This document shows, piece after piece, positions 4,829-18,870 of a stretch of 24,140 nucleotides of DNA. The stretch covers positions 1 through 24,140 of IMG/VR virus record IMGVR_UViG_3300042565_000142; one strand, 5' to 3'. Each line of letters begins with the position of its first letter. Position 1 is the first letter of the stretch. This DNA is from a virus. Made by a program: the position numbers and the translations under genes. The notes under the pieces were generated by a model. That model saw only the letters and a program-made list of their open reading frames with translations. It searched no databases and was not told the DNA's origin.

Positions 4829-6745
4829 ATGGCAGCACTATCAATCAGCGTACCGTACCCAGTCTTTTCAGGACAGGATGGGTTGCCTTTGGACAATGGT
4901 TATGTGTGGATTGGCACAGCAAATCTGTACCCTATAACCAACCAGATTGCCGTCTATTTTGACGAAGCATTGACTATTCAAGCAACCCAGCCATTACGCA
5001 CAATCAATGGCTATATCTCCAACGCTGGCACACCAGCACAGATATATGTTGATGCTGTGAACTTCAGCATCTTGGCGCAGGACAGCAAAGGCACGATGGT
5101 CTACAACTTTCCAGAAGGCACTGGAATCAGTCCTAATGCTTCGGGTGTTGCTTTCACAGGCTTTAAAGGTCAAGTTGGGGTTGTGCAAGATTTGGCTGAT
5201 AATGACGGGTCTGATTGGGTTGGGTTTGAACCACTTTCCCCCGCAACTACTTCACGTTCAGCACAAGACAAATTGCGCGAAACCGTAAGCGTCTTGGACT
5301 TTGGTGCTAAAGGTGATAGCGTAACGGATGACACCGCAGCAATTCAAGCCGCAATCAACGCAGCGGGTACTATTTTCTTTCCCCCTGGTGGCTACATAAT
5401 TACAGACACAATTATTCTTGGTGATAAGAAAACATTATATGGTGCAAGCCCGCAATTTAGCGTTGGCGGTGGTGTTGCCTTTAATAATGTCACTACAATT
5501 TTTGCTGATAAGTCTGTATTTTCTGATGGCCAGCCAATGTTTAGGGCCGACAGCGGAATAACGCAACGGTCTGCCATTCAATTTGTGAATCTTACAATTC
5601 GCAGCAATATAACTGCATCGTTTTCAGATTTGGCCGCAATGGAATCTACAGGCCCAATTGGTGTCGCCGTTAATGGTATTAAAAATGGACTGACATTTGA
5701 CGGTTGCGCTTTCCGCAATTTAAAAAAGGCTATTTCAGATCAGGTAAGCCCCACCTATGGCTATACTGACAAACCAACATTTAACGATTGTTATTTTTTG
5801 CATTGTTATCTTGCGATTGAAGTGTTCCCCTCAGTTGATTTGGCACTTAACGACTGTTACTTTGATGAGTGTTTTAACTGGATTAAGTCAAATCGTATTG
5901 CTTTGCACAATCCAAGATTTCAAAACAGTTCTTTTGCCCAAGATTTTTGCCAGATAGAGGGAACATCTATTATTTGCACTAACCCTTGGTTTGAGGGCGG
6001 CAACAACTGGTTTAAGCCGTCTAGGTATTTAGAGGTTCGCGGTGGATATTTTTCCGAGGCAATACAATCAACTGGCACTTTTAGATATTCGGTTCAACTT
6101 ACTGTTGATGATGTTGAAGTTTTGCTTGCCGGTGTTCGTATTGGAACAAATACGCGCATATTTAATTTTAATGGTGCAGCCGAAGGAAAAACAACTATCA
6201 AGCTGCATGGAAATTACAACGGAACCAATTTTGGTAATACCGCCAACATCAATCATTACTTGGCTCTTGGTTTGAAGTATGAAGGCACACAAAATACCGA
6301 TACAAGAATGAATGTGTCTTTAGTTGGAAACGCACAATTAAATGGCCAACTAACTACTGATGGAGATGCCGCAATTCGAAAATTTCCAAATCTTTGCCGA
6401 TCAGTAAGCTGGAAAGACTCCATTACTTTTTCTTTAGCATTCCCGCAAGATATTAAAAATTTTACGGGTAGTGACCCAAATGTTTCCTATGTAAAGATTC
6501 CAATTGTAGGTTGCGACCTTGGGGCTGGTGGAACCAATGCGTATTTTGCGGAAGTTGTTATTTACAAAGGGTTTGACGATGTTTGGGATAGTTACATATC
6601 CGGCCCTGATGCGGCGTCTTATGCTGTTACTTTCACAAACAAAACCAGTTCATCGGTAGATGTTGAAATTACAGAATCACACGCTGGGTCAGGTGAAATC
6701 CTGATTTTAGAATCGGCAAGTGAAAACTGCGTAATCACTTTTTAA
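4829..6745 (+). CDS. P22-type tailspike with beta-helix receptor-binding/depolymerase domain, 638 aa
   Basis: Tail-tip protein that binds, and probably cleaves, a host surface polysaccharide. AAGGAG lies nine bases before ATG 4829. Residues 1-100 match the P22 tailspike head-binding domain: VPYPVFSGQDG, then DNGYVWIG, VYFDEALT, QPLRTINGYI, QIYVDAVNFS and DSKGTMVY in the family order. A linker follows. At residues 153-190 the pectate-lyase-3 entry motif VSVLDFGAKGD...DDTAAIQAAINAAG...FFPPGGYI begins a right-handed beta-helix. The C terminus is a separate beta-rich region. P22 gp9 is 666 aa and trimeric. The catalytic residues and the sugar target cannot be read from sequence; C-terminal regions of such spikes vary with host. 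Confidence 0.9.
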   Translation: MAALSISVPYPVFSGQDGLPLDNGYVWIGTANLYPITNQIAVYFDEALTIQATQPLRTINGYISNAGTPAQIYVDAVNFSILAQDSKGTMVYNFPEGTGISPNASGVAFTGFKGQVGVVQDLADNDGSDWVGFEPLSPATTSRSAQDKLRETVSVLDFGAKGDSVTDDTAAIQAAINAAGTIFFPPGGYIITDTIILGDKKTLYGASPQFSVGGGVAFNNVTTIFADKSVFSDGQPMFRADSGITQRSAIQFVNLTIRSNITASFSDLAAMESTGPIGVAVNGIKNGLTFDGCAFRNLKKAISDQVSPTYGYTDKPTFNDCYFLHCYLAIEVFPSVDLALNDCYFDECFNWIKSNRIALHNPRFQNSSFAQDFCQIEGTSIICTNPWFEGGNNWFKPSRYLEVRGGYFSEAIQSTGTFRYSVQLTVDDVEVLLAGVRIGTNTRIFNFNGAAEGKTTIKLHGNYNGTNFGNTANINHYLALGLKYEGTQNTDTRMNVSLVGNAQLNGQLTTDGDAAIRKFPNLCRSVSWKDSITFSLAFPQDIKNFTGSDPNVSYVKIPIVGCDLGAGGTNAYFAEVVIYKGFDDVWDSYISGPDAASYAVTFTNKTSSSVDVEITESHAGSGEILILESASENCVITF

Positions 6746-11889: not shown

Positions 11890-12080
11890 TTCAATCCCCT
11901 GATGTAAATAGCAAAGCTGTGCAATGTGTCTTGGCCGAAGCCCTCCATTTTCTCGATATGCTGTGCAACTTCCTCAATAACTTGGTCTCGATAGGGGTTG
12001 GTTGATACGCCTAGCACGGCACGTTTGCGCCACAGGCTTTGGCGTTCCAGTTCGTTAAATGCTTCATCTTCTTCAGTCAT
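11886..12080 (-). CDS. Small acidic/helical protein, 64 aa
   Basis: I chose ATG 12080 because GGGAG lies five bases upstream and the start overlaps the previous stop (ATGA). A longer frame to 12113 would lack a site. The product begins MTEEDEAFNELERQSLWRKRA and is a mixed-charge helical protein with no motif I recognise. Operon position suggests an early accessory role. Confidence 0.7.
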   Translation of the reverse strand: MTEEDEAFNELERQSLWRKRAVLGVSTNPYRDQVIEEVAQHIEKMEGFGQDTLHSFAIYIRGLK

Positions 12081-12391
12081 ATCAACTCCCGTTGTATAGG
12101 GACAAAACACCATTCACGTTCTGCCCTGCCTGACTTGGACTTGGTGATCCGACCAGTTAACTCCACCAATCCGATCTTGGCCAACTCAGGCAACCGCCTT
12201 GCGACTTGATTGCCATCCAGCCCAGTCAACTCAGCGATGCCATCTTTACCCCGTGCGCCAAAACGCTGGAGGCAACCCACGATCAGGTCAAAGTGCTGCC
12301 GAGCCAAATCTTGTGCTTGGTCTGCGGCGGCGTGACTGGTGGCTGGGTCAAGAGACCTTGCCCGATTAAAATGGGATTGTTGTATCTTCAT
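12077..12391 (-). CDS. Winged-helix DNA-binding protein, 104 aa
   Basis: I chose ATG 12391, preceded by GGGGG six bases upstream; the longer frame to 12454 has no site. The N terminus has the RARSLDPATSHAAA motif known from a phage family of small helix-turn-helix proteins. The second half reads as a winged helix: GKDGIAELTGLDGNQVARRLPELAKIGLVELTG, an HTH followed by a wing. It probably binds DNA as a regulator or recombination accessory. It overlaps the upstream 81-aa gene by 26 bases. Confidence 0.75.
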   Translation of the reverse strand: MKIQQSHFNRARSLDPATSHAAADQAQDLARQHFDLIVGCLQRFGARGKDGIAELTGLDGNQVARRLPELAKIGLVELTGRITKSKSGRAEREWCFVPIQRELI

Positions 12392-12611
12392 TGTCAAACC
12401 CCCGTGGCTGTTGGCGTTCAGTTGGCTTGAGGTTGTAACAGTTTGCCCATCCATCCCATCCGCCTTTGGGCAGGGGTATTACATCCAGCTTAATTTTAAG
12501 GTTGCCGTTATCTTCAAACACCGAGCCGATGTTTTGATAGCGTTTCTTTTCCTCGCCCATCTCGTTGACGTATGAGCCAGTAACCACGGTGATGTCTTTG
12601 ATCTTTTTCAT
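12366..12611 (-). CDS. Small beta-rich protein in recombination operon, 81 aa
   Basis: ATGA overlap with the exonuclease gene. The chain is rich in beta strands (ITVVTGSYVNE, KKRYQNIGSVFEDNGNLKIKLDVIPL) and ends with an acidic tail, DNEDTTIPF. An OB-like fold with an acidic C-terminal tip ending in Pro-Phe is the design of single-stranded-DNA-binding proteins (SSB tips end DIPF). This, and its place beside Erf and YqaJ, suggest an ssDNA-binding accessory, but it is short for an SSB and I have no family match. Confidence 0.7.
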   Translation of the reverse strand: MKKIKDITVVTGSYVNEMGEEKKRYQNIGSVFEDNGNLKIKLDVIPLPKGGWDGWANCYNLKPTERQQPRGFDNEDTTIPF

Positions 12612-13213
12612 GCAAGGCTTTCAAGTTGTTGGATTTTCAGGTCTACATCACCCAGAAATTGGATGACTGAATTCTCAAGCGAATCAACCAGTTGTTTGTC
12701 AAAGTTGATGCGTTTGATGAATAGTTGGTATTTTTCTGGCATCCGTGGGTCAAAGGATACAAAGTCGCACCACGGGCGTTCTGTGCAGGCCATTTGCCAC
12801 ATCATTTGCGTGATGTACTTTTCTGGCACTTTTTGGTCAAGCAGGGTTGCAATGTGGGTGGCAGTGTTGGGGCATTTGATTTCCACCAAACCCTCGTCTG
12901 CCAAGCCATCAGGAGACGCACCAGACATCGCAATGTGTGGGTGGGTAATGAACCCTACCTCGGTTACCAAAATGTCAGCCTTGGCCTCGTAAGCGGCTCG
13001 GGCAAAGGGTTCGGTATCAGTACCCCACTGCATGGCTGAGTTGCTAAAAGACTCTGCTGGTTTGCCTGTCATGCGTTCGCAGACAAGCTGCGCCATGTAA
13101 TTGTCCCTGCTGGTGCTGAAACCAGTCTTGGTTTTGGCAATGATGTCTGCCACTCTGCTGGCGGTGACCTTGCCACATCTGGCGGCAAACCATTCTGTTG
13201 TGCCTTGGTCCAT
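12608..13213 (-). CDS. YqaJ-family (lambda-exonuclease-like) recombination nuclease, 201 aa
   Basis: Predicted 5'-3' double-strand-DNA exonuclease that produces single-stranded tails for annealing. Family motifs appear in order: EWFAARCGKVTASR (7-20), WGTDTEPFAR (63-72, with E68), GASPDGL (98-104, D102), LVEIKCP (109-115, E111 and K113) and QMMWQM (136-141). D102, E111 and K113 form the PD-(D/E)xK active site. Length is normal for the family. The start shares one base with the Erf stop (TAATG), so the pair is co-translated, as expected for a two-component recombinase. Confidence 0.92.
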   Translation of the reverse strand: MDQGTTEWFAARCGKVTASRVADIIAKTKTGFSTSRDNYMAQLVCERMTGKPAESFSNSAMQWGTDTEPFARAAYEAKADILVTEVGFITHPHIAMSGASPDGLADEGLVEIKCPNTATHIATLLDQKVPEKYITQMMWQMACTERPWCDFVSFDPRMPEKYQLFIKRINFDKQLVDSLENSVIQFLGDVDLKIQQLESLA

Positions 13214-13782
13214 TATTTAGCCCCTTCCAGCAAAGCCTTTTTAGCGTCTTTTTTGGCGATGACCTTGCTAACCCATGCCTGTTCGCCTTTGGTGGCTGTA
13301 TAGGCCGTTTTATAGGTTTTCTGCAACTCTGCGATAGTGGTGACTTCATCCATTGCCGCCAGCAGGTCAGCCATTTGGTTCTCGTTAACCTCGGACTTAA
13401 CCTCGGTGCGGCGTGACCCTGCATTGCCATCGTCATCCTCGGGTGCAATACCGCAGGCAGCCATCAGGCTGTACCGCCTGGCATAAGTCAGGGCAGAGCC
13501 AAACCCTTGCGGGTCTTGCTTGGCGGCTGGAACGTGCAGGATTCCGCACTCGAGCATTTCGCCCGATTCGTGCAGGAATACAGTTTCAACCATAACCCCA
13601 TCGTTGCAGTCGTAATTCTTTTGAATCAGGGCAATGCCGTTGTCGTTCAGCCCTTGGATGACTGCCTCAACACAGGCGGCAAGGTCGGCATAGCGGCTTT
13701 TGAAGTGCGGGTTGGTGGATGACTTGAGAGCAGGGCCAAAGGCTTTTTGAGCCTTGACCAGTGCGGTTGCGATGTGTTTCAT
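13213..13782 (-). CDS. erf: Erf-family single-strand annealing protein, 189 aa
   Basis: Promotes annealing of complementary strands in phage recombination, as P22 Erf does. Signature segments are visible: LVKAQKAFGPALKSSTNPHF (8-27) leading into KSRYADL, the nucleotide-like GFGSALTYARRYSLMAACGI (93-112), and the acidic PEDDDGNAG just after. The C-terminal third is a charged variable domain. AAAAGGT precedes ATG 13782. P22 Erf is 204 aa. It is followed directly by the YqaJ exonuclease. Confidence 0.92.
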   Translation of the reverse strand: MKHIATALVKAQKAFGPALKSSTNPHFKSRYADLAACVEAVIQGLNDNGIALIQKNYDCNDGVMVETVFLHESGEMLECGILHVPAAKQDPQGFGSALTYARRYSLMAACGIAPEDDDGNAGSRRTEVKSEVNENQMADLLAAMDEVTTIAELQKTYKTAYTATKGEQAWVSKVIAKKDAKKALLEGAK

Positions 13783-14393: not shown

Positions 14394-14440
14394 TTCTGAC
14401 TCCTAAAAGACCCTGTGCGGAATTGCTGGGGCATGGGTGC

Positions 14441-14469
14441 ATTATTAAGTAAAGTTAACCCCATGTAAA
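14441..14469 (-). promoter_or_regulatory. Predicted leftward sigma70-type promoter
   Basis: On the minus strand, TTTACA (plus 14464-14469) is followed after 17 bases by AATAAT (plus 14441-14446). Each box matches consensus at five of six positions. Transcription would start near 14434, giving a 40-base leader with a strong ribosome site for the 59-aa gene. An AAGTTAA element lies in the spacer. Confidence 0.6.
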
Positions 14470-14522
14470 GGGTTTTTTATAGGGGCTTTCCCTAGTGTTG
14501 CTTTTAAGTTAATACAAGTTAC
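14452..14522. repeat. Candidate repressor operators (AAGTTA repeats)
   Basis: AAGTTAA occurs at 14452-14458 and 14506-14512, and AAGTTAC at 14516-14522. The first is inside the leftward promoter spacer (within palindrome GTTAAC); the others flank and enter the rightward promoter. The last two are spaced ten bases apart, one helical turn. This is the arrangement expected for sites of the adjacent Cro-like protein, but binding is inference. Confidence 0.45.
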
Positions 14523-14525
14523 AAT
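14498..14525 (+). promoter_or_regulatory. Predicted rightward promoter giving a leaderless mRNA
   Basis: TTGCTT (14498-14503), a 16-base spacer and TACAAT (14520-14525). The expected start point, six to seven bases after the -10 box, coincides with the A of ATG 14532. No ribosome binding site lies between. The cro-like transcript would therefore be leaderless or nearly so. Confidence 0.55.
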
Positions 14526-14531
14526 GCCGCA

Positions 14532-14699
14532 ATGACAAAAGAACAGCTTATCAAATTGGCAGGGTCACAGAGTGAGCTTGCAAGGCTTTTGGGCATCAGC
14601 AAGCCTGCGGTCTGCCAGTGGAAGGCACAAATCCCTGAGTTGCGTTTGCGCCAGCTCAAGGACTTGAAGCCTGAGTGGTTTTTAACGGAGGAAACATGA
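14532..14699 (+). CDS. Cro-like transcriptional repressor, 55 aa
   Basis: The product is one helix-turn-helix domain: QSELARLLGISKPAVCQW (residues 13-30) followed by KAQIPELRLRQLKDLKPEWF, the typical ending of Cro/YdaS-like phage repressors (IPELR..QL..L.PEW). It is first in the rightward operon and diverges from the leftward one, as Cro does. Likely binds the nearby AAGTTA repeats to tune both promoters. No ribosome site is seen upstream, consistent with a leaderless message. No partner CI gene is visible. ATGA couples it to the next gene, whose GGAGG site lies within its last codons. Confidence 0.85.
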   Translation: MTKEQLIKLAGSQSELARLLGISKPAVCQWKAQIPELRLRQLKDLKPEWFLTEET

Positions 14700-14845
14700 A
14701 AAAAGCACTGATTGCAATTTGGATTGCAGCATCAACCACAACGGTCTGGGCGGCTTGCTCAACGCACACCTACTATGCCAATGGAAGGTATGTCACCTGC
14801 ACCACCTGCTGTTATGGAAATAATTGCAACACCAACTGTTATTGA
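14696..14845 (+). CDS. Secreted Cys-rich microprotein, 49 aa
   Basis: CGGAGG lies six to seven bases before ATG 14696, which overlaps the cro-like stop. The N terminus is a classic signal peptide (MKKALIAIWIAASTTTVWAA) with likely cleavage after A20. The mature 29 residues are packed with cysteine, tyrosine, threonine and asparagine: C21, C35, C38, C39, C44 and C48 in CSTHTYYANGRYVTC and TCCYGNNCNTNC. Six cysteines could form three disulfides in the periplasm. C21 at the cleavage site lacks a good lipobox. Function unknown; host envelope modulation or superinfection exclusion are possibilities given its early position. Confidence 0.75.
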   Translation: MKKALIAIWIAASTTTVWAACSTHTYYANGRYVTCTTCCYGNNCNTNCY

Positions 14846-14948: not shown

Positions 14949-15728
14949 ATGCACTACTACACGCACCACATTGGTGACTTCCTAAAAGACACAGGACACC
15001 TTAGCAACGACCAAATGGGCGTTTATCTGAGGATGCTCTGGCGATATTACCTTGACGAAAAGCCACTACAAGACGATTGCGAAAGCATTGCGTTTGCTAT
15101 GCGTTCGGATGAAAAAACCGTGCGCTTGATACTGCGCCATTTCTTTGTTTTGCATGAAGATGGATGGCGGCACAACAGGTGTGACAAGGAAATTGCCAGA
15201 TACCATGAAAAGAGTGGGAAGGCATCAGAAAGTGCAAACGCACGATGGAAGAATGCGAAGGCAATGCGAACGCATACCGAACGCATTGCGGATGCACCTG
15301 TTTTTGATGCTAACCAAGAACCAATAACCAATAACCAAGTAAATACATATATATGTCCGCCTGACGGCGAACTTGAGGCGATGACGGCTTCAAAAATACC
15401 AGCCTGTCAACATCAAGGGGTCATTGAGTTGTACCACCAGCACTTGCCAACTTTACGCAGGGTTGAGGTCTGGAATGCAACGAGGCAGGGTTATTTGCGG
15501 CAACGATGGCGGGAAGTGGCTGAAGAACTGGCGCAGGAAAAGCCCATCGAGATTGCAAATGTCTTGAACTGGTGGGGTGATTTTTTCCAGCACATTGGCA
15601 AAAGTAAATTCCTAACTGGCAAAGTCAACAGCAAGGATGGTCGGGCATTCACTGCCGACCTTGAGTGGATTTTGAAACCAACCAATTTTGCAAAAATCGT
15701 AGAGGGAAAATATCATGGCAATAACTAA
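14949..15728 (+). CDS. DUF1376-type phage replication protein, 259 aa
   Basis: Probable replication initiator or organiser. GTGAGG precedes ATG 14949. The N-terminal 90 residues match the DUF1376 layout: MHYYTHHIGDFLKDTGHLS, then MGVYLRMLWRYYLDEKPL and the RHFFVLHEDGWRHNRCDKEI section, a winged-helix-like fold. A basic linker (SANARWKNAKAMR) follows. The C terminus ends GRAFTADLEWILKPTNFAKI then a short basic tail (VEGKYHGNN), typical of phage O-like replication proteins. No helicase gene or polymerase is visible, so the host replisome is presumably recruited. It overlaps the next gene by 14 bases. Confidence 0.8.
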   Translation: MHYYTHHIGDFLKDTGHLSNDQMGVYLRMLWRYYLDEKPLQDDCESIAFAMRSDEKTVRLILRHFFVLHEDGWRHNRCDKEIARYHEKSGKASESANARWKNAKAMRTHTERIADAPVFDANQEPITNNQVNTYICPPDGELEAMTASKIPACQHQGVIELYHQHLPTLRRVEVWNATRQGYLRQRWREVAEELAQEKPIEIANVLNWWGDFFQHIGKSKFLTGKVNSKDGRAFTADLEWILKPTNFAKIVEGKYHGNN

Positions 15729-16101
15729 TTTCAGAAAAGACGAGCCGCAGGACAATCTTGACCACCTTATGTGTCAAGCGCATGGTTGCCCAAACCGCTG
15801 GTCAGTTGACCGTGGAAGCCGCCTGTGTTCAGCCCATGCATGGGAAGAGCCACATAAATGGCCGCAGATTACAGAAAGCCTTTTCTACAAAACAAACTCA
15901 AAACAAGTTGACAACCTGCCGCCAATTAAATTTAGTGAAGCAGAAAAAAGGGAAGTAATACAGAATTTGCGTCAACTTTCATCAAACAACCAAGACCAAA
16001 AGCAATGGGCAAAGGTTTTGCAGCAAAAAGAACAGGCTGGGGAAAACCTTAGCAAAATCCAGCGTGAGGCATGGCGCACTGCCTTGAAGCACCATGTTTA
16101 A
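15715..16101 (+). CDS. Putative zinc-binding small phage protein, 128 aa
   Basis: GAGGG lies upstream of ATG 15715. Residues 20-41 hold a possible zinc site: C20 and C25 (MCQAHGCPNRW), C38 and H41 (LCSAHAW). The C-terminal half is charged and helical (FSEAEKREVIQNLRQL, QWAKVLQQKEQAG). Position just after the replication protein suggests a helicase loader or replication accessory, but no ATPase motif is present. The stop overlaps the methyltransferase start by eight bases. Confidence 0.7.
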   Translation: MAITNFRKDEPQDNLDHLMCQAHGCPNRWSVDRGSRLCSAHAWEEPHKWPQITESLFYKTNSKQVDNLPPIKFSEAEKREVIQNLRQLSSNNQDQKQWAKVLQQKEQAGENLSKIQREAWRTALKHHV

Positions 16102-17170
16102 CAAAATTGAATTTGGTGATTGCCGAGAAACCATGCGGCGATGGAAAGAACAGGGCATCAAAGCACAAACTTGCGTGACCAGCCCTCCTTATTTTGGCTT
16201 GCGTGATTACGGAACTGGAAAATGGGTTGGCGGTGACAAAAACTGTGATCATGTGGAAAGTGAAAATAAACATGGCGGTCAAAGAGCAGACAGAAACCAA
16301 GAAGGCTACAAAAAAAAATACAAAGATGTTTGTAAGAAATGCAATGCTGTGCGTGAAGATGGTCAAATTGGATTGGAAGAAACCCCAGAGCAATACATTC
16401 ACGCAATGGTTGAAGTGTTCCGATGCGTTTGGGATGTGCTTGAGGATGATGGGACGCTATGGCTGAACATTGGAGATAGTTATTGCAACAGCAATGGCTT
16501 TGCAAGGGCTAGTCCTGAGTACCAACGTGAAGGCAGAAACAATATGCCAGCCAATGACAGAAAGCTGGACAAACTGCATGAGACAGGCTTAAAGACCAAA
16601 GACCTTATCGGTATCCCTTGGATGCTGGCCTTTGCATTGAGGGCTGACGGCTGGTATCTACGTCAAGACATCATCTGGCACAAGCCAAACCCAATGCCTG
16701 AGTCGGTGCAAGACAGATGCACCAAGTCGCATGAATACATTTTCTTGATGAGTAAGTCGCAGAAGTATCACTACGACCATGAGGCGATTAAAGAAGAAGC
16801 AATTAGTGCTGGCATCATTGGTGGTTCTTTTCAGGGAAGACAGGGTGGTGCTGAATACCACACACAAAGCGGCGGTGTTGGCAGTGAAGCAAAAGAATAC
16901 CTAAACAAGAATAAGCGTAGTGTTTGGACGATACCTGTCAAACCCTACGAAGGCGCACATTTCGCCGTCTTTCCTCAAGACTTGATTGAGCCTTGCATCC
17001 TTGCTGGCGCACCTGTTGGCGGTATAGTCCTTGACCCTTTCATGGGTAGCGGCACAACGGCACAAGTGGCACAAAACCTTGGGCGGCAATACCTTGGCTG
17101 TGAATTGAATCCAGACTACAAACCACTGCAAGACAAAAGAATTAGCCAAATGTCTTTGGAATTAATATGA
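16094..17170 (+). CDS. Beta-class DNA methyltransferase (N4-cytosine/N6-adenine) with zinc-ribbon insert, 358 aa
   Basis: Transfers methyl from S-adenosylmethionine to an amino group of A or C. Catalytic motif IV TSPPY is at 29-33 and cofactor motif I LDPFMGSGTT at 313-322; the order IV before I defines the beta class. TSPPY is more usual in N4-cytosine enzymes, so that is favoured. Between them a putative zinc ribbon (C51, H53, C80, C83) precedes TPEQYIHAMVEVFRCVWDVL, the normal layout of a phage N4/N6 methylase family. DGTLWLNIGDSY (119-130) and ALRADGWYLRQDIIWHKPNP (181-200) are family segments. No restriction enzyme gene is near, so it is an orphan, probably protecting phage DNA. Confidence 0.9.
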   Translation: MFNKIEFGDCRETMRRWKEQGIKAQTCVTSPPYFGLRDYGTGKWVGGDKNCDHVESENKHGGQRADRNQEGYKKKYKDVCKKCNAVREDGQIGLEETPEQYIHAMVEVFRCVWDVLEDDGTLWLNIGDSYCNSNGFARASPEYQREGRNNMPANDRKLDKLHETGLKTKDLIGIPWMLAFALRADGWYLRQDIIWHKPNPMPESVQDRCTKSHEYIFLMSKSQKYHYDHEAIKEEAISAGIIGGSFQGRQGGAEYHTQSGGVGSEAKEYLNKNKRSVWTIPVKPYEGAHFAVFPQDLIEPCILAGAPVGGIVLDPFMGSGTTAQVAQNLGRQYLGCELNPDYKPLQDKRISQMSLELI

Positions 17171-17852: not shown

Positions 17853-18178
17853 GACCAGAAGATGCGGCGCAAACCATCAGAGATAAAGCCCCAGCATTTG
17901 GGGAAGCCAAAGCCCAACGGGTTTACCTTGAGGAATTCCGCAAATCCAAAAAAGCCTTGCTGATGAAAGATGCCTTAACATTGGGCATTGAAGCGGCAAA
18001 CGCGCAGGAACGAGAAGCGTATGCCCACCCAAGTTATCAACAGCTTATTCGTGGACTGGCTGAAGCGATTGAAAAAGAGGAAACGCTGAAATGGGAGATT
18101 GAGGCGGCACGACTGGACATCGAGATTTGGCGTTCACGGGAAGCAACCAACAGAAACCAAGACAGGGCGCACCAATGA
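17849..18178 (+). CDS. Small helical phage protein, 109 aa
   Basis: ATGA junctions link it to RusA upstream and the second methyltransferase downstream. The product is charged and helical, with EAKAQRVYLEEFRKSKKALL near residues 19-38 and a C-terminal coiled coil. This resembles a conserved phage protein often located near RusA, without known function. No metal or nucleotide motif is seen. Confidence 0.7.
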   Translation: MRPEDAAQTIRDKAPAFGEAKAQRVYLEEFRKSKKALLMKDALTLGIEAANAQEREAYAHPSYQQLIRGLAEAIEKEETLKWEIEAARLDIEIWRSREATNRNQDRAHQ

Positions 18179-18870
18179 AAATCGAATTTGAAAACGCAAC
18201 GTTATATTTAGGAGATTGCATGGACATTCTGCCTACGCTTGACAAGGTAGATGCCGTGATTACTGACCCGCCTTATGGCATTAACGAAAACAGTAAAAAA
18301 GTTGCGTCTAGACAAAGAAAAAATAGCAATTCAAAGGCATTGGCAGACCAACGAGATTATGGGGATTTTAATTGGGATGAATTTGCACCATCAAATGATT
18401 TGATTAATTTAGTACGAACAAAGGGACAGCACCAAGCCTTTTTTGGTGGCAACTATTTCACATTACCCCCTACATCATGCTGGCTAGTATGGGACAAGCT
18501 GAATGGCGACAACGACTTTGCTGATTGCGAACTGTGCTGGACGAACTGGCCTAAGGCTGTACGCCGCTTGCAATGGCGCTGGAACGGCATGATTCGGCAA
18601 GGAAATGAGGAACGCTATCACCCAACACAAAAGCCACTTGAGGTTATGAAATGGGTTATTACCTTATGCCCTAAATCTGAAACCATACTTGACCCATTTA
18701 CGGGAAGTGGCACAACTGGTGTAGCAGCCATCCAGATGGGTAGGAAGTTCATTGGTATAGAGCGAGAGCCTAAATATTTTGATATTGCTTGCAAACGTAT
18801 AGAGCAAGCATCAAAACAAGTGGATATGTTTGTTAGACAACCCAAGGCGGTTCAAGAGGTAATGTTTTGA
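18175..18870 (+). CDS. Second beta-class DNA methyltransferase, DPPY type (probable N6-adenine), 231 aa
   Basis: I chose ATG 18175 (ATGA overlap); a longer frame to 18127 has no support. Motif IV DPPYG is at 31-35 and motif I DPFTGSGTTG at 173-182, again the beta-class order, with HPTQKP (149-154) as the family's conserved segment before motif I. DPPY favours N6-adenine methylation. The FIGIEREPKYFDIACKRI ending (192-209) is typical. A small target-recognition region sits between (residues 36-100). No nuclease partner is visible, so the genome carries two orphan enzymes with different catalytic motifs and probably two target sites. Confidence 0.9.
   Translation: MKIEFENATLYLGDCMDILPTLDKVDAVITDPPYGINENSKKVASRQRKNSNSKALADQRDYGDFNWDEFAPSNDLINLVRTKGQHQAFFGGNYFTLPPTSCWLVWDKLNGDNDFADCELCWTNWPKAVRRLQWRWNGMIRQGNEERYHPTQKPLEVMKWVITLCPKSETILDPFTGSGTTGVAAIQMGRKFIGIEREPKYFDIACKRIEQASKQVDMFVRQPKAVQEVMF

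Follow-up and report, generated by a model that had tools for sequence, protein, structure and literature searches.

The early control region of the window, as we call the whole stretch of DNA that was analysed (an IMG/VR virus record of 24,140 bases), is very likely to be a negative-feedback timer in which Cro alone acts on both early promoters, more tightly on PL, in a P22-like podovirus that lacks CI. The genes for a P22-like portal (E 9e-150), a Terminase_3 protein and an Sf6-type small terminase identify the window as part of a P22-like podovirus. Two divergent sigma-70-like promoters, PL and PR, were predicted from the sequence at the same places where the first-pass annotation had put them, and each of them has in its spacer one copy of a 16-bp palindrome, GTTAAG-N4-CTTAAC, which is the conserved element of the region (Table 1). 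Palindromic operators in the spacers of two divergent early promoters are a feature of the lambda-type switch. The annotation had described the divergent arrangement as similar to that of lambda, with a Cro-like gene as the first rightward product, and had suggested timing control by Cro only. The arrangement is supported by the operators and by the match of the first rightward product to the Pfam family P22_Cro, and the Cro-only control by the operators, by their covariation with the Cro recognition helix and by the absence of S24-type CI and of integrase in the complete relatives tested.

Table 1. Features of the early control region and of the flanking early operons (window positions).
Feature	Position	Strand	Remarks
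YqaJ-type exonuclease	12608..13213	-	Leftward early operon; Pfam YqaJ, E 3.6e-31
ERF single-strand annealing protein	13213..13782	-	Leftward early operon; Pfam ERF, E 2.6e-22
First leftward gene, 59 aa	14214..14393	-	No family; variable slot behind the PL leader
PL leader RNA	14400..14434	-	Conserved; possible 5'-terminal hairpin, then Shine-Dalgarno of the first leftward gene
PL promoter (predicted)	14441..14469	-	-35 TTTACA 14469-14464, 17-nt spacer, -10 AATAAT 14446-14441
O_L, predicted operator ATTAAGTAAAGTTAAC	14444..14459		In the PL spacer; overlaps 3 bases of the PL -10
Dyad TAGGGGCTTTCCCTA	14480..14494		Consensus TAGGG-N5-CCCTA; centre about 45 bp before the cro ATG; unassigned second element of PR
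PR promoter (predicted)	14498..14525	+	-35 TTGCTT 14498-14503, 16-nt spacer, -10 TACAAT 14520-14525
O_R, predicted operator GTTAATACAAGTTACA	14508..14523		Weaker copy, in the PR spacer; overlaps 4 bases of the PR -10
cro, 55-aa P22-type Cro repressor	14532..14699	+	Pfam, PDB sequence match, AlphaFold/Foldseek
Replication protein	14949..15728	+	Rightward early operon; DUF1376 N-terminus, primosome/O-like matches

The 55-aa protein is a P22-type Cro. It matched P22_Cro (PF14549) with an E value of 9.2e-12 and 45 bits, as compared to a cut-off of 30.2, and by sequence it matched the P22 Cro structure 1RZS in the PDB (E 2.6e-4). The AlphaFold model has five helices and a pLDDT of 86, and in this predicted model the protein has the all-helical fold of the P22 and N15 Cro proteins. 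A Foldseek search with the model gave 1RZS as the best match (TM 0.78), followed by the N15 Cro entries 2HIN (0.77-0.79) and 6ON0; none of the Foldseek E values was below 0.001, the best being 8.9e-3, because the protein is short.

Viral contigs were scanned with the 55-aa Cro, and the best 80 of the 408 relatives found were retained; the set was widened by four further protein scans, one of them with the 59-aa product of the first leftward gene as query. The DNA pattern TTGTTAAGNNNNCTTAAC, run against viral contigs, gave at least 120 stretches; it is insufficiently specific, and its loci were left out. There were 267 loci with cro, and the 257 with sufficient upstream sequence gave 111 distinct regions, 90 of them with Cro proteins of the MTK type and 21 of other types (8 MDK/MNK and 13 MNL). 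The operator statistics rest on the 89 distinct MTK-type regions that have 115 nt or more upstream. The distant MNL-type regions, where the two-site geometry was not found in the places expected, were excluded from every operator count. Since the relatives share ancestry and are not independent, all counts given here overstate the number of evolutionary events. The probable Cro-only early switch is one of freshwater phages.

A promoter scan of the window gave 4 promoter-like sites as compared to 3.6 expected in shuffled sequences, so the scan is by itself no proof of PL, and PR is missing from the scanner output because its -35 box is weak. Among the relatives, the PL -35 box agrees with the consensus at 5 or 6 of its 6 positions in 55/89 regions and at no more than 3 in 28/89. 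All 12 regions with a 54-bp operator spacing belong to these 28, which have no good -35 box at 17 nt, and PL is thus not a uniform promoter across the family. In the window, the PR -10 box ends 6 nt before the ATG of cro, which has no Shine-Dalgarno sequence. This distance is also 6 nt in 88 of the 89 relatives, and a Shine-Dalgarno-like sequence before cro was found in none of the 89; taken together, this predicts that cro is leaderless.

The first-pass annotation had pointed to AAGTTA elements at both promoters, and the word does occur on the + strand, at 14452, 14506 and 14516. As a site or signal it did not hold. The comparison of the repeats in related phages, which the annotation had proposed as a check, showed that the last 110 nt before cro have no copy of AAGTTA in 75 of the 89 distinct relatives, one copy in 3, two in 2 and three in 9. 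The direct repeat was rejected as the conserved element on these grounds, and it is the 16-bp palindrome that is kept instead. Three copies in 138 bp correspond to a Poisson P near 1e-4 for a word that was chosen after looking, and the 16 copies in the whole window, where 11 were expected, were reached in 14 of 100 shuffles, which means that the word is not enriched overall. The three copies overlie three of the four half-sites of the window, GTTAAC (14454-14459), GTTAAT (14508-14513) and GTTACA (14518-14523), and the fourth, ATTAAG (14444-14449), is without AAGTTA. AAGTTA is a clade-specific form of the half-sites of the palindrome.

The window's own sites are degenerate, with 10/12 consensus matches in O_L and 8/12 in O_R, and can for that reason not be safely read from the window sequence alone; the O_R score is equalled by chance 16-mers nearby. 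In the relatives, O_L has 9-12 of 12 matches, and is perfect in 20 of the 89 regions, and O_R has 8-11 of 12. Both palindromes were above the thresholds (at least 9/12 for O_L and at least 8/12 for O_R) in 90/90 MTK-type regions. When symmetry alone was considered, O_L was the most symmetric 16-mer in 81/89 regions, and O_R came first in 10/89 only and among the top three in 65/89. In tests that avoid circularity, the half-site derived from O_L ranked first of 90 letter permutations at O_R, and a 4-nt spacer was the best of all spacers from 0 to 10 at both operators. When all 4,096 half-sites were tried over the 89 regions, GTTAAG came out on top for the left side and, in a separate reading, for the right side.

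A genome-wide search that allowed one mismatch to the consensus gave matches in 20 of 22 records, each of which has a match at the switch. Two of these records (G019 and G022) have one extra match each, approximately 5 kb rightward of the switch. The two records without such a site are G001, which belongs to the window's clade, and MW202544, and a reversed control pattern gave matches in 5/22 records. The position of the matches at the switch, with one extra place in two records, suggests that Cro probably acts only there. The O_L-O_R spacing falls into classes of 54, 64, 67, 74 and 75 bp in the relatives, and is 37 in the MDK type. The spacings 54, 64 and 74-75 are about one helical turn apart, and we do not claim a helical phasing of the two operators, as 67 (20 regions) and 37 (the MDK type) do not fit and the independent events are few.

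The half-sites change together with the recognition helix of Cro. In a sister clade of 8 distinct regions, where Cro begins with MDK or MNK and the recognition helix reads HQSAVSQWK, O_L and O_R have TAT(C/T/A)AG half-sites instead, and GTTAAG is number 481 in the ranking; TATCAG scores best at the left site, and TATTAG and CATTAG share the first place at the right one. Within the main, MTK-type group it was also possible to observe a covariation at base 1 of the half-site, in sites that were placed without using that base. Base 1 is G in 240/240 half-sites where the first varying helix position is Arg, and in 69/116 where it is Lys, Phe or Tyr. When counted by distinct Cro protein, only G is found at base 1 in 49/49 Arg types, and at least one other base in 18/18 Lys/Phe/Tyr types. 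This covariation is indirect support for Cro binding to O_L and O_R and acting there as a repressor. The lambda half-site TATCAC, with Gln27 and Ser28 in its Cro, resembles the MDK clade with its QS helix and TATCAG. A Cro half-site code was reportedly worked out by Hall, Lefevre and Cordes in 2005.

An unassigned second element of PR is the TAGGG-N5-CCCTA dyad, which has at least 8/10 matches in 69/89 distinct regions, always 28 bp before O_R, and is absent from the 20 regions with the 67-bp operator spacing. A similar TAGG...CCCTAAT is present in MW202544. On the other side, the leader of the PL transcript may fold into a hairpin directly at its 5' terminus. Single-sequence folds of the leader were no better than those of shuffled sequences (z from 0.02 to -1.43), and in a set of 18 variants, picked by hand from the 87 unique leaders, there are two pairs in which both partners differ, each in a single sequence, a result that a slid control equals. 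A mini-ORF from the predicted PL start was rejected because its AUG is often AUU and the loop lengths break the frame.

It was noted earlier that the leftward arm starts with the 59-aa protein and continues with recombination genes, and the latter are confirmed by Pfam as ERF and YqaJ. The 59-aa protein itself had no Pfam or PHROG match. The genes that directly follow the PL leader in 96 distinct loci form 25 unrelated groups, 11 of them single, with products of 38 to 149 aa for most, and the start codon lies 11-13 nt after a conserved TCTT box in 93/96 loci. This implies that the PL promoter and leader are constant and that the gene is exchanged. The 59-aa protein is the first leftward product in only 5 of the 96 loci, so it is not part of the mechanism, and it was rejected as a regulator. 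The genes of this slot are candidates for early host-takeover or counter-defence genes.

Some other genes of the window were also seen. At the end of the leftward operon, 12077-12454 on the - strand belongs to PHROG 1123 and has a weak winged-helix match, which makes it a regulator candidate. Directly after cro, 14696-14845 encodes a small cysteine-rich protein with a signal-like N-terminus, which had no Pfam, PHROG or NCBIfam match; a similar protein follows cro in MW202544. The rightward operon contains two N6/N4 DNA methyltransferases (16094-17170 and 18127-18870), and a tail-spike-like protein with a pectate-lyase-like domain is encoded at 4829-6745.

Integrase, S24 peptidase and HTH_3 were searched for in 28 and 24 records, 43 together, including phage PBR31 as positive control. 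The other 42 were the window, 38 records with this type of Cro, G027, MW202544 and MW202867; G027 was found by its homologue of the 59-aa protein and is not among the records with a demonstrated switch. Peptidase_S24, the CI type, was found in none of the 42 records, nor was HTH_3 over its cut-off, and PBR31 matched both. Phage_integrase was found in PBR31 and in one of the 42, G027, and Resolvase in none of 10 records, PBR31 included. The weak HTH_3 matches were to cro itself, except for those in frames of 870 and 763 residues in two records and in an HNH endonuclease. HTH-bearing frames of 201 aa in two relatives were considered as CI candidates and rejected as HNH endonucleases, and a below-cut-off HTH_26 match in G008 is likewise in an HNH endonuclease. 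HNH endonuclease genes with HTH-like ends lie in the right part of the relatives L424 and L425.

Exact terminal overlaps of 114-127 bases were present in 6 of 10 long contigs tested, which makes these six complete genomes, of 34-36 kb, and MW202544 and MW202867 are circular records. An S24-type CI or an integrase was found in none of the complete relatives and in neither circular record. As the window is only a 24-kb record, the absence of CI rests on the relatives. The first impression that no CI is visible is thus supported, and the suggestion of a different repressor elsewhere has so far found no support. In bacterial genomes, a scan with two peptide patterns gave four places, two of them short betaproteobacterial metagenome contigs with 64 and 52% identity and the other two matching 24 residues only. 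With these four places only, an intact prophage of the group was not seen, in a two-pattern scan that is not exhaustive. It appears that the group is virulent.

We propose the following mechanism. PL would drive the recombination genes together with the variable small gene, and PR would drive cro and then the replication genes. The 55-aa Cro would bind as a dimer to O_L and O_R and block RNA polymerase; because each operator overlaps the -10 box of its promoter, a bound dimer should have this effect. Early after infection both promoters would fire, and cro would be made at a low rate owing to its leaderless mRNA. The rising Cro would close the stronger O_L first and the weaker O_R later, so that the recombination genes would be turned off first, and cro and the replication genes would then level off through self-repression. 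Such a circuit would be a one-repressor pulse timer with no choice between lysis and lysogeny, and it seems that half of the textbook lambda switch survives here as a stand-alone timer.

Other explanations have to be considered. It is conceivable that a remnant Cro provides an immunity-like state, in which a carrier or pseudolysogenic cell keeps a constant level of Cro that turns down PL and PR of incoming relatives, the timing being a by-product. Operators that are kept and coevolve with Cro family-wide would fit any use of Cro as a repressor, and Cro is the sole repressor-like protein found in the records screened, but no maintenance genes or integration functions were seen, and the variety of the operators is no larger than what one protein-site pair needs; we regard this explanation as rather unlikely. 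It is improbable that the palindromes are bound by another protein of host or phage and that the Cro-like protein acts otherwise, for instance as a YdaS-like toxin. Toxicity and a divergent RacR-type repressor are features of the YdaS toxin family. The 55-aa protein does pass the YdaS_toxin (PF15943) cut-off, with 34.6 bits as compared to 30, and PR holds a second dyad without an assigned binder. However, the P22_Cro score is the higher of the two, P22 and N15 Cro are the nearest folds, and the half-site and the recognition helix covary in two separate ways.

The phage could also be temperate, with a repressor and an integrase that are located outside the window or are of another type. The record has only 24,140 bases, PBR31 with a terminase that is 70% identical is temperate, and the profiles searched were Phage_integrase, Resolvase, S24, HTH_3 and HTH_26 only. 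None of these functions was found in the six complete relatives or the two circular records, however, and the two-pattern scan of bacterial genomes gave only four places that encode a relative, two of them matching over 24 residues, and no intact prophage, which leaves this explanation a very small probability. That the repeats are functionless, AT-rich and due to chance is contradicted by the covariation, and by the conservation seen along with it in 89 plus 8 distinct regions, even if the promoter scan was no richer than shuffles and the window shows no enrichment of AAGTTA; we give it practically no weight. The Cro-only timer is the explanation that we prefer.

A comparison with known systems shows where the switch of these phages is similar and where it differs. 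P22 Cro is of the same protein family, and 1RZS is matched in both sequence and fold. The c2/Cro operator of P22 has the core TTAAG-N4-CTTAA, which is the same core with the same spacing as here. P22 is temperate, with c2 and several operators per promoter, whereas here there is one site per promoter and a c2-like gene was not found in the records screened. The lambda immunity region is alike in its divergent early promoters, its spacer operators and its order of genes, with Cro first on the right, recombination on the left and replication on the right. Lambda has CI, an integrase, PRM and three operators per promoter; in contrast, the phages studied here have no CI, no integrase and no PRM-type cI promoter, and the three operators per promoter were not found, each promoter having a single one. 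Xanthomonas phage PBR31 is similar in its terminase and in its P22-like portal gene order, and its early region is divergent, the first rightward gene being that of a putative repressor. A site matching 11/12 is found beside its c repressor gene, at 39912. PBR31 differs in having an integrase and that S24-type c repressor.

The telomere phages PY54, N15 and phiKO2 (immB) are also alike, PY54 with a 16-bp palindrome and a leaderless cro and N15 with a matching Cro fold. In these phages Cro has a single site, beside the gene of the prophage repressor, and presumably does not repress its own synthesis. According to the PY54 study, PY54 Cro binds a 16-bp palindrome in which the end bases G and C set the specificity, and the cro mRNA was measured to be leaderless (PMC4488713). 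Contrary to the telomere phages, there is no prophage repressor here, and there is a site in each early promoter, including that of cro itself. The virulent pac phages of Streptococcus thermophilus have reportedly retained cro, and we know of no operator coevolution in them. Remnants of lysogeny modules in virulent phages are mentioned for these pac phages (PMC6213268).

Each element by itself is of a known kind, whether the P22-type Cro, the palindromic operators, the leaderless cro or the lysogeny remnants in virulent phages. What may be new is their combination, a family-wide Cro with one site per early promoter and no CI. None of the open-access titles and abstracts listed describes phages that lack CI and have a switch with Cro only, which is weak evidence. 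With a little less than even confidence, we suggest that a widespread lineage has dropped the CI half of the switch and that its Cro is a two-site timer, in which the strong site closes the recombination arm and the weak site in the leaderless cro promoter sets the steady level. The dyad fixed at 28 bp would then mark a second regulator of PR, PL and its leader would be a socket for exchanged small genes, and Cro and its operators would have coevolved through at least two specificities.

The Cro of lambda is normally studied against CI. If our explanation is true, a cro gene and operators that are selected without CI would show the worth of Cro alone, and it would become directly testable whether Cro is mainly a lytic timer or mainly an anti-CI device. 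The 67 distinct Cro proteins, for each of which two sites are mapped, are a natural data set for the rules of protein-DNA recognition, and the coevolved specificities of Cro and its operators would, if true, be a natural series from which the recognition code of Cro can be read.
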